This document shows, in pieces, positions 2,937 through 46,520 of a stretch of 64,000 nt of DNA (position 1 is its first letter; every line of letters begins with the position of its first letter). The translations under genes and the position numbers were made by a program. Under the pieces are notes generated by a model. The model was not told the DNA's origin. It saw nothing but the letters and a program-made list of their open reading frames with translations, and did no database searches. Location of the stretch: positions 124,001 through 188,000 of the forward strand of contig JAUICM010000003.1 of the NCBI GenBank assembly GCA_030427885.1, written 5' to 3'. Origin of the DNA: Rhodothermia bacterium. Lineage in GTDB: Bacteria; Bacteroidota; Rhodothermia; Balneolales; Balneolaceae.

Positions 2937-3523
2937 TTCTTCACTTCGTTTGCATCCGCTCTCTCTGTTTTAAGAAGAACTCCTGGGATCATATGCCCGG
3001 AAGTCCCGAAGCTTCGGGATCTGGAGCTTTTGGTTCTGGAGCCTGCACTGTGGTAGCTCAGGGTCGGTCCAAAAGAACTGAGAACCAATACATGACTCGG
3101 TAGCCGTTCCATAAGATCCTGAATCAAGTTCAGGATGACGAGTGCTTTTAAGGATTTTGTCATCGTGAATATAGCTAGGGATCAATCATGGTTCAGGATG
3201 ACGGCTTAAAGATATTTTCATAGTAGAAAAGTCCTCCCTCGAGGGAGGTGGCATTTTGAGCTTGCTCAAAAGCCGGAGGGTGTCGGAAACTAACTCCCAA
3301 ATTAATACGGACACCCCTCCCGCCTTCGGCGTACTCCCCTCAAGGGGAGACTTATTTTATCCACAAAGATAAACCTATCCCTCTTTAGAGAGGGACAAGT
3401 CAAAACTTGTTTTGTCTCAGGGAGAGGCCCGGGTGGGCTGCTGTTACAAAGCCTCACTGGTCCTCCCTCTGATCTCACATAAATGAGTGATCTGTCTCCC
3501 TCCTAAGGTAGACATGTAAAGAA
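2937..3523. repeat. Palindrome-rich intergenic spacer between pyrH and the YHYH lipoprotein
   Basis: No convincing gene lies in these 587 bp. Several inverted repeats are packed together. TCCCGAAGCTTCGGGA is a perfect 16-bp palindrome at 3004-3019. ATCCTGAA/TTCAGGAT pair at 3116-3136. GTTCAGGATGACG occurs twice as a direct repeat (3128-3140 and 3191-3203). A composite foldable unit at 3231-3351 contains CCTCCCTCGAGGGAGG, TTTTGAGC/GCTCAAAA, GGGTGTC/GACACCC, CGCC/GGCG and TCCCCT/AGGGGA. CCCTCTTTAGAGAGGG lies near 3380-3395. This looks like several families of dispersed extragenic palindromes piled together. Short open frames here are artefacts. Confidence 0.75.
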
Positions 3524-43932: not shown

Positions 43933-46332
43933 CTAGAATTCCCACTTCACCTGGAACAGGAAATTCGTTCCGGCCTGAGGATAATAATAATTTACGCGCT
44001 GTTCTCCACCCCAGATATAGCCGTAGGTATAACCGTTAGTTTCGTATTCTGCGTCCAGAATATTACTCACTTGTAAAGTTCCGGTGATCGCCTTTGCGAA
44101 AGCAAGTCTCGTTAGCTTGTAACTGAGCTTAATGTCATTCACTAAATATGGATCGAGAGAGCGGGCATCATCCTGGGTATTATCCAGGTATTGTCTGGAT
44201 ACATATTTGGTAGTGAGATCTCCGGTAAAGCCTCCTTTGGTATAGCTAAACACAGAATTAAAGATCACACTTGGGGAAAATGCAATATCAGTATCGCTGA
44301 ACTGGCGTTCGATCTGTCCTCCATTATCGTAATCATCGATAAACTCAGAGATCTGATCGATCTTATTTCTGCTCAGAGTGGCATTTACCGCCCAGCCGAA
44401 TTCGGGAATGAACTGATATCCTCCTTCCAGCTCCACTCCTACACGATAGCTTTTATCAACATTATCGCGGATATAAGCTCCCACATCGTTGATCTGGCCA
44501 GTCAATACTAACTGGTCTTTGTAGAACATTCCGTACAGATTAACACCTGCAAAAGCAGCTCCCATTTCTCGGCTATATCCTGCTTCCACATTATAAAGAG
44601 TTTCGGCATTCGGGCGGCTTTGAGGGGTTGAGTTTACATATTCATCTCTGGTTGGTTCCTTGCCCGCCATACCAAATGAAAGAAATGCACGCTGGCCTCT
44701 TTCATCCCGGTAAACAACCCCTGCTTTTGGATTGAAGAAGCCGAGCTTATCCGTTACATCAACTGCAACCGTTCCACCTCCAGGCTGATTATCCAAACCA
44801 AAGAAGGTATAATTGATATTTCTGTACTGCAGATCAACATACCCGTTCAGGTTCTCTCCTATCAGATACTGAAGCTTCCCATAAATATTGAGGTCCTTCT
44901 TCTCGGCATCATTGTCATAATAATTCTGCCCTGTTTCACTGTCCCCAGCGTAACGTGCCCAGATCACTTCCCCAAAATGACCGCCATCATAAATGTTATA
45001 TCCTCCACCCAGGGTGACGTTCCATGATTCTCCGGATGAATATTTTGTTGAAAAGATCCCGCCATAAAAATCATTATTCAGCCAACGTCGGCGTACCAGA
45101 TCAGAGTTAAGCTGAACAGAATTGATCCCGTAATCAACCAGTAGTTCATTGGCTTTGTATTCCTCATAATAGCCTTCTCCCTTTGTGTAATGAAGAGATG
45201 CATTGGCTGTCCAGTCATCGGTCAGACGATAGGAATAGTGCAGTTGGTAATAATCCTGACGATAGTTGTCTACCTGATTTTCATATGGATTACCTGACTT
45301 TTCAGTTCCCGCTTCATTGAAGGTTCGATCCCCTGACTCCAGCACACTTTCCTCAACTCCGTACCAGGCCTGATAGGTGATCTCTTTTCCCGAGAATACA
45401 TCCGCCTTCAACAGACTACGTTTTCCTCGTTTGCTACCGGAAAGATAAAATGAATACAGATCAGCATCTGCGCGGTCGATATATCCATCCGAGACAATCT
45501 TAGACAGACGTCCTTCGAACATCCAGCCATTTTCCATTAAGCCGGAACCCAGCATGATATTGGCTTTCCTTGTGTTGAAGGATCCAATACCTGTATTCAC
45601 TTCTGCGAATGGTTCCACTTTATTGCTGCTTGTCTGCAGATTGATGGAAGCTCCAAAAGCTCCGGCTCCGTTCGTTGACGTTCCAACTCCGCGCTGGATC
45701 TGAATATTATCAACAGAAGAAGCGATATCAGGCAGATCCACCCAAAATACTCCGTGCGATTCGGCATCATTTACCGGAATTCCGTTAATGGTCACATTGA
45801 TTCGTGCCGGATCAACGCCCCGGATTCTGATACCAGTGTATCCCACACCTGCACCTGCATCCGAAGTGGTTACCACCGATGGTGTATTCCTCAACAAGTA
45901 TGGAACATCCTGACCCAGATTTTTCTCCCCGATCTCAGACTTTGTGATATTGGTGTATGAAAATGGTGTGGCATCATCCACCCTGGTAGCTTCCACAAAA
46001 GCCGCATCACTGATATATGTTTCCGGCTCAAGAAATATCCTCATGTCAGTATTATCAACGGGAATCTCGATCTCTTTGGATCTATATCCCAGAAAGTTGA
46101 TCTGAATTCTTCGCGGAGCTCCTTCTTTAAGTGTATATGAAAATTTCCCGTCGCCATCGGTAACAGCTCCGCTGGAAGTATTCATCTGTTTGATGGTAGC
46201 TCCGGCCAGTGGCTCTTTGTTTTGGACATCAAGAACAGTACCAGAAATAGTCTGTGCCTGTATCTTAATAGATGATAGTAAAGTTAAAAAAACTGCAAAA
46301 AGCAGTGTGGAATTGAATGTTTTTGAGAACAT
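43933..46332 (-). CDS. TonB-dependent outer-membrane receptor under TPP riboswitch control (probable thiamin receptor)
   Basis: An outer-membrane receptor of 799 aa. A signal peptide (LLFAVFLTLLSSIKIQAQ) precedes a carboxypeptidase-D-like domain (ISGTVLDVQNKEPLAGATIK), a plug (IRIRGVDPARINVTINGIPV, IQIQRGVGTSTNGAGAFG) and a beta-barrel ending NFLFQVKWEF. It lacks the SusC signature and a SusD partner. A TPP riboswitch lies about 80 bases upstream on the same strand, so the receptor most likely imports thiamin or a precursor; receptors with this regulation are known in Bacteroidota. GGAGG is 4 bases before the ATG and is predicted to be masked when TPP is bound. Confidence 0.93.
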   Translation of the reverse strand: MFSKTFNSTLLFAVFLTLLSSIKIQAQTISGTVLDVQNKEPLAGATIKQMNTSSGAVTDGDGKFSYTLKEGAPRRIQINFLGYRSKEIEIPVDNTDMRIFLEPETYISDAAFVEATRVDDATPFSYTNITKSEIGEKNLGQDVPYLLRNTPSVVTTSDAGAGVGYTGIRIRGVDPARINVTINGIPVNDAESHGVFWVDLPDIASSVDNIQIQRGVGTSTNGAGAFGASINLQTSSNKVEPFAEVNTGIGSFNTRKANIMLGSGLMENGWMFEGRLSKIVSDGYIDRADADLYSFYLSGSKRGKRSLLKADVFSGKEITYQAWYGVEESVLESGDRTFNEAGTEKSGNPYENQVDNYRQDYYQLHYSYRLTDDWTANASLHYTKGEGYYEEYKANELLVDYGINSVQLNSDLVRRRWLNNDFYGGIFSTKYSSGESWNVTLGGGYNIYDGGHFGEVIWARYAGDSETGQNYYDNDAEKKDLNIYGKLQYLIGENLNGYVDLQYRNINYTFFGLDNQPGGGTVAVDVTDKLGFFNPKAGVVYRDERGQRAFLSFGMAGKEPTRDEYVNSTPQSRPNAETLYNVEAGYSREMGAAFAGVNLYGMFYKDQLVLTGQINDVGAYIRDNVDKSYRVGVELEGGYQFIPEFGWAVNATLSRNKIDQISEFIDDYDNGGQIERQFSDTDIAFSPSVIFNSVFSYTKGGFTGDLTTKYVSRQYLDNTQDDARSLDPYLVNDIKLSYKLTRLAFAKAITGTLQVSNILDAEYETNGYTYGYIWGGEQRVNYYYPQAGTNFLFQVKWEF

Positions 46333-46336
46333 CGAT

Positions 46337-46380
46337 CCTCCAATTAAATTAAAGATTAATGGAGGAGGTCAACCCGCCTG
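46337..46380 (-). promoter_or_regulatory. TPP riboswitch expression platform masking the Shine-Dalgarno
   Basis: In the mRNA the Shine-Dalgarno GGAGG (46341 to 46337) is complementary to CCTCC inside CCTCCTCC (46368 to 46361), forming a hairpin just before the start codon. The aptamer's own 3' strand has GGAGGA (46422 to 46417), complementary to TCCTCC at 46366 to 46361. The two pairings are mutually exclusive. Read together: ligand-bound aptamer, Shine-Dalgarno masked; free aptamer, Shine-Dalgarno open. Confidence 0.6.
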
Positions 46381-46411
46381 TGCATTGCCAGGCATGTCTG
46401 AGATAGGAACA

Positions 46412-46489
46412 GGTTTTCCTCCGCCGGTATTACCCGGATCAGGTCTTAGGGTATGATCTCAGCCCCATTTAATTGGGACACCCCTAACC
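46412..46489 (-). ncRNA. TPP (THI-box) riboswitch aptamer
   Basis: Read on the minus strand the segment has all the conserved parts of a TPP aptamer in order: closing pair GGTT...AACC, GGGGTG, a variable hairpin TCCCAATTAAATGGGG, GGCTGAGATCATACCC, then ACCTGATCCGGGTAATACCGG and GCGGAGGAAAA. This is the standard sensor for thiamin pyrophosphate. It lies in the leader of the TonB receptor gene. Confidence 0.96.
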
Positions 46490-46520
46490 GTGCAACAAAG
46501 GTAGGAAGTTTATCCTCCAA

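Follow-up and report, generated by a model that had tools for sequence, protein, structure and literature searches.

A cis-acting TPP riboswitch predicted to mask a retained Shine-Dalgarno sequence before a probable thiamin receptor gene in Balneolaceae

The window analysed here, a stretch of 64,000 nucleotides from a Rhodothermia bacterium of the family Balneolaceae, carries on its minus strand a gene for a TonB-dependent outer-membrane receptor with CarbopepD_reg_2 (carboxypeptidase-regulatory-like), Plug and TonB_dep_Rec_b-barrel domains (Pfam), preceded by a TPP riboswitch aptamer (Table 1). The aptamer matches RF00059 over its full length (model 1-105; Infernal, Rfam 15) at 67.0 bits (E 5.6e-11), where the gathering threshold is 54.3, and the conserved TPP core segments CTGAGA and ACCTGATC..GG.TAAT.CC.GCGnAGG are present in the alignment and in the sequence itself. 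A sequence-only reading of this DNA had placed every segment of a TPP sensor at 46412-46489 and proposed an Infernal search; all pieces that it named, in the aptamer and in the leader, lie where it placed them, and the search returned a score above rather than below threshold. By these sequence features the element is a genuine TPP riboswitch for which TPP binding is predicted. It is the sole match in the whole 4.15 Mb genome, where no second TPP riboswitch was found, and the aptamer is above cutoff in 84 of 92 genomes of the family.

Table 1. Features of the receptor locus, in window coordinates (SD, Shine-Dalgarno sequence)
Feature	Position	Strand	Basis
TPP riboswitch aptamer	46399..46495	-	RF00059 match; P1-to-P1 span ~46412-46489
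P1 5′ strand GGTT	46489-46486	-	sequence
GGAGGAAAACC: aptamer core and P1 3′ strand; proposed partner in the TPP-free state	46412..46422	-	sequence; duplex energy; SD-open fold
GGTTGACCTCCTCC: GGTT mimics the P1 5′ strand; CCTCC would pair with aptamer GGAGG (on) or SD (off)	46361..46374	-	folding, duplexes, GTT enrichment
5′ arm of the SD-sequestering hairpin (TCCTCCATTAA)	46356..46366	-	family duplexes, aligned hairpins
3′ arm of the sequestering hairpin, ending in the SD	46337..46347	-	[AG]GAGG conservation
SD GGAGG	46341-46337	-	sequence
Receptor ATG, 4 nt past GGAGG	46332-46330	-	sequence
TACCTTTG, match to the Bacteroidota -7 promoter box (TAnnTTTG)	46496..46503	-	consensus (PMC9723704)
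ORF hairpin ACTGC TTTTT GCAGT, then TTTTTT; codons 9-14	46292..46306	-	synonymous-shuffle tests
TonB-dependent outer-membrane receptor, 799 aa, probable thiamin receptor (OMthi/Omr1 type)	43933..46332	-	Pfam domains; aptamer upstream in relatives

The nearest named relatives of the receptor are encoded by Balneolaceae MAGs (62-67% identity), followed mostly by proteins of Pedobacter and Sphingobacterium (40-49%). Because 73 of 80 relatives of the receptor in other genomes, predominantly those of Sphingobacteriales, have a TPP aptamer immediately before the gene, the pairing of aptamer and receptor is evidently old. The neighbouring ORFs scanned encode a second TonB receptor, two His_kinase proteins, a LytTR regulator and a DUF6904 protein, and no thi gene occurs among them, as the sequence-only reading had remarked; the one thiamin pyrophosphokinase (TPK) gene and the one PnuC-family transporter gene of the genome both lie outside the window. 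The genome search found no ThiC and no ThiE above cutoff, the ThiE family appearing only as a sub-cutoff fragment. With TPK and a PnuC-family transporter but neither ThiC nor a convincing ThiE, the source bacterium is probably a thiamin auxotroph whose sole TPP riboswitch precedes the receptor gene. The receptor is probably a thiamin receptor of the OMthi/Omr1 type, with transport predicted, and the TPP-riboswitch-linked OMthi of Bacteroides thetaiotaomicron has been assigned a role in thiamin uptake by genetics (PMC5613172). The earlier proposal of a receptor for thiamin or a precursor is upheld in its first part by the aptamers upstream of the relatives, but this gene content makes intact thiamin the likelier substrate. 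A genuine aptamer on a receptor that imports a precursor or some other compound is improbable: TonB receptors are diverse and their substrates unreadable from sequence, but the lack of ThiC and of ThiE above cutoff, the presence of TPK and the PnuC-family transporter, and the genetic identification of the corresponding B. thetaiotaomicron receptor as a thiamin transporter (PMC5613172) all argue against it.

Transcription likely starts close to the aptamer. The box in Table 1 fits the Bacteroidota -7 consensus TAnnTTTG (PMC9723704), and in 59 of 76 loci of the family TAnnTT[TG] occurs 8-34 nt before P1, compared with 8% of control windows, so that the predicted 5′ end of the mRNA falls at the aptamer or just before it. 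Upstream of the riboswitch, the intergenic segment 46579-46645 (minus strand) contains two hairpins (TTCCGAAGG..CCTTCGGAA and TGGAAGCTCCAGCTTCCA) that might represent a repeat element or terminators.

The TPP loci of the 92 Balneolaceae genomes yielded 79 distinct receptor leaders, 75 of which carry [AG]GAGG 3-8 nt before the ATG (69 GGAGG, 6 AGAGG), and an SD adjoins the receptor start in 18 of the 19 genera examined. Of the four leaders without the motif at the ATG, one (L191) has GGAGG ahead of an alternative ATG and another (L009) has only the GGAGG of the aptamer itself. In the latter (L009:1571-1587, from a 1.5 Mb family genome), the likely receptor ATG directly follows the aptamer (GGCGGAGGAAAACCATG), whose conserved GGAGG could serve as the SD, an arrangement that would amount to direct occlusion with no separate platform. 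By comparison, [AG]GAGG precedes 4.3% of 235 genes sampled from the window's own genome, in line with the earlier expectation that an SD would be unusual in this lineage of Bacteroidota. Measured on about 450 kb of the same genome, GGAG or GAGG is found before 9.8% of genes vs 3.8% after shuffling, and a looser test that also admits AGGA gives 14.5% (7.2% shuffled), 45% in E. coli and 5% in a Sphingobacteriales set; the Balneolaceae lineage is SD-poor, not SD-free. Retention of the SD as a general trait of riboswitch-controlled genes was considered and is not seen in the cobalamin-riboswitch leaders of the family. The 16S anti-SD ACCTCC is intact in 22 family genomes, the relatives having been examined since the exact pattern was not found for the window's own genome, where the 16S 3′ end is probably missing from the draft assembly.

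Opposite the SD each leader has a C-rich arm, and the SD/arm duplex averages -11.1 kcal/mol in 75 family leaders vs -7.8 ± 2.0 for shuffled linkers. The outer helix is replaced between genera and still pairs (CCATT/AATGG, CCAA/TTGG, TCAAT/ATTGA, TCTTAT/ATAAGA), and in genus 2 the SD has changed together with its partner (CCTCT..AGAGG). These comparisons use per-sequence duplexes because bulges shift the register in the RNAalifold alignment of the hairpin, which scores -1.1 kcal/mol. No terminator was found between aptamer and ATG in the window leader. As the SD is kept in nearly all leaders and faces a CCTCC arm whose outer helices differ yet pair, the predicted masking of the receptor start is well supported. 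The sequence-only reading had proposed that CCTCC pairs with the GGAGG 4 bases before the ATG and that relatives be compared, and this pair is indeed conserved and coevolving across the family.

The hairpin need not act through the SD as such. Since SD sequences go largely unread by Bacteroidia ribosomes (PMC9976891, PMC8710568), the role of GGAGG may be solely that of a hairpin arm, in which case the hairpin would occlude the start region in general and initiation would proceed with no SD pairing. The low SD use of the genome, the sequestration of the anti-SD in Bacteroidia ribosomes (PMC9976891), and the Pedobacter and Sphingobacterium orthologues, which mostly lack an SD yet have a hairpin before the start, are all consistent with such occlusion. 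Nevertheless it seems somewhat unlikely, as the outer helix drifts freely while GGAGG stays 3-8 nt from the ATG even in L018 and L159, whose partner arm is altered or spans it incompletely, and as the excess of SD-like motifs before starts in the genome is small but real. A true SD is favoured over a mere hairpin arm because GGAGG is also kept in genus 3, where the arm spans only part of it (CCCGCTCTTAT/ATAAGACGGAGG).

For the state without TPP, the window offers a P1 strand-exchange duplex, GGAGG(AA)AACC/GGTT(GA)CCTCC, of -17.3 kcal/mol (46412-46422 with 46361-46374 and flanks), which is recovered in the fold with the SD held open. A GTT no more than 7 nt 5′ of the anti-SD arm is present in 52 of 75 leaders vs 15% of control windows. 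The on-state pairing named earlier, aptamer GGAGGA with TCCTCC, exists in the window but is better drawn as exchange of the P1 strand (GGAGG..AACC/GGTT..CCTCC). Among relatives it is conserved and strong in genera whose aptamer ends in GGAGG, whereas GTAGGG genera have weaker alternatives and the family mean of the aptamer/anti-SD-arm duplex (-9.7 kcal/mol) is no better than that of shuffles (-9.75), so that the pairing is not general to the family. Folding with and without P1, likewise proposed in the sequence-only reading, revealed no ligand-dependent switch, and equilibrium folding was rejected as proof of switching because the SD is paired in both states. Switching would therefore have to be kinetic, which we infer to be compatible with the order of transcription.

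Taken together, the computed aptamer, SD, sequestor conservation and gene content make it likely that the locus is a cis-acting TPP riboswitch by which a bacterium probably auxotrophic for thiamin represses translation of a thiamin receptor. Transcription would begin beside the aptamer and, when TPP is low, the 3′ segment of the aptamer and its P1 strand (GGAGG..AACC) would pair with GGTT..CCTCC before the SD is transcribed, leaving the SD GGAGG free and allowing the receptor to be made. Binding of TPP would close P1 and release CCTCC, which could then pair with the GGAGG in front of the ATG and block initiation.

The coding sequence itself contains a further element. In the window a hairpin, ACTGCTTTTTGCAGT, is followed by TTTTTT, and a hairpin with a T-rich tail recurs in 46 of 79 family receptors vs 9% after synonymous codon shuffling, in 7% of genes of the same genome and in 1 of 18 cobalamin-riboswitch genes; outside the family it is found in 31 of 71 receptors vs 12% shuffled. 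Only over its first ~70 nt does the receptor ORF have a folding energy clearly below that of synonymous shuffles (mean z -1.2, vs about -0.2 further on), the genus mean z is negative in 16 of 19 genera (Wilcoxon p 0.002), and gap-free neighbours show two-sided stem changes from A-T to G-C and from T-A to C-G. The hairpin within the first ~15 codons has thus been selected beyond codon choice, a new observation that both the sequence-only reading and aptamer-centred annotation had overlooked. Its tail is only slightly richer in T than codons predict (4.54 vs 4.20 T in 9 nt; runs of four or more in 42% vs 29% expected), and because this excess is marginal, a terminator, a pause hairpin and other roles are all possible.

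In E. coli, start-site transcriptional pausing is a proven checkpoint in the TPP riboswitch of thiC (PMC5234074). The conserved hairpin, within codons 6-17, may supply an extra layer of control during transcription, for instance if RNA polymerase slows down or stops near the start codon when no ribosomes follow. One version of this would be a translation-coupled intrinsic terminator: with initiation blocked by TPP, RNA polymerase would stop ~50 nt into the gene and control would be mainly transcriptional. The frequency of stem and T-rich tail among receptors relative to shuffles and to other genes of the genome speaks for such a terminator, as does the window hairpin with its run of six T; against it stand the tail barely exceeding codon constraint, the short stems (5-9 bp), and the B. 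thetaiotaomicron OMthi transcript, which does not respond to thiamin in RNA-seq (PMC5613172), albeit in a distant relative. Mainly transcriptional control is accordingly a doubtful alternative to translational repression. A combination of the two is conceivable, and we put it forward tentatively: a two-checkpoint riboswitch in which a functional SD is kept on one gene as the target, and masking of the start is coupled to pausing or termination of RNA polymerase at the coding hairpin when ribosomes do not follow.

The E. coli thiM TPP riboswitch uses alternative pairing among a P1 segment of the aptamer, an anti-SD and the SD. The receptor leader would resemble thiM in this pairing and possibly thiC in pausing near the start codon (PMC5234074), but it differs from both in serving an uptake receptor, in belonging to an SD-poor lineage and in having a conserved hairpin inside the coding sequence. 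The closest parallel within Bacteroidota is OMthi/BT2390 of B. thetaiotaomicron (PMC5613172), which also has an RF00059 aptamer on a TonB-dependent thiamin receptor; unlike that system, the platform described here is predicted to mask a conserved SD, thiamin biosynthesis is apparently missing, and no pnuT or tnr3/TPK gene adjoins the receptor. The action of TPP riboswitches in Bacteroidota has been described as uncertain (PMC5613172), and those of Bacteroides regulate transcription or translation according to the title of a 2019 preprint cited in PMC7366714. Bacteroidia rpsU (bS21) leaders, which have an extended SD and are controlled by ribosome composition (PMC9976891), likewise retain a regulatory SD in a phylum of mostly SD-less mRNAs, but the present leader has a 5-nt SD core that would be controlled by a metabolite-sensing RNA. 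The rpsU leader of the same genome (L267, minus strand), GAAAGGAAGTGAGG, is near an extended SD complement and resembles the retained Bacteroidia rpsU SD. Taken singly, aptamer, receptor type and SD masking thus belong to known kinds, TPP riboswitches on such a receptor being known in Bacteroides, and the retained SD in an SD-poor family together with the selected ORF hairpin makes this a variant with an unusual platform. Balneolaceae, which keep an SD on a riboswitch target but seldom have one elsewhere, provide a natural case that could reveal whether and when their ribosomes read SDs.

Other TPP loci differ in platform or gene. In Balneolaceae, the TPP aptamers of L157, L169, L175, L178 and L205 are followed by apparent plain intrinsic terminators, which suggests at least two platform types in the family. 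Pedobacter orthologues of the thiamin receptor (L041, L042, L046, L048 and others) have an apparent TTG start with SD-less hairpins before it, and Sphingobacterium has a start hairpin of the type AGTTAAA...CCCCT...TTTAACT, the same aptamer being joined to a different expression platform. At about 14 Balneolaceae loci (L168:474-1199, plus strand; also L134, L138, L162, L170, L179, L182, L184-L187, L195, L198 and L209), a TPP aptamer precedes a gene for a class-I SAM methyltransferase of ~241 aa (Pfam Methyltransf_11, E 5.6e-15), which is not a known thiamin gene. As AIRS/ThiL-like and ThiE-like ORFs, judged by eye, follow closely behind it in L168 and L198, the methyltransferase may be an unrecognised enzyme of the thiamin pathway. 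Elsewhere in the window, two opposed matches to the Rfam whalefall-1 RNA lie ~30 nt apart at 3375-3429 (plus strand, 46.4 bits) and 3460-3515 (minus strand, 45.4 bits).
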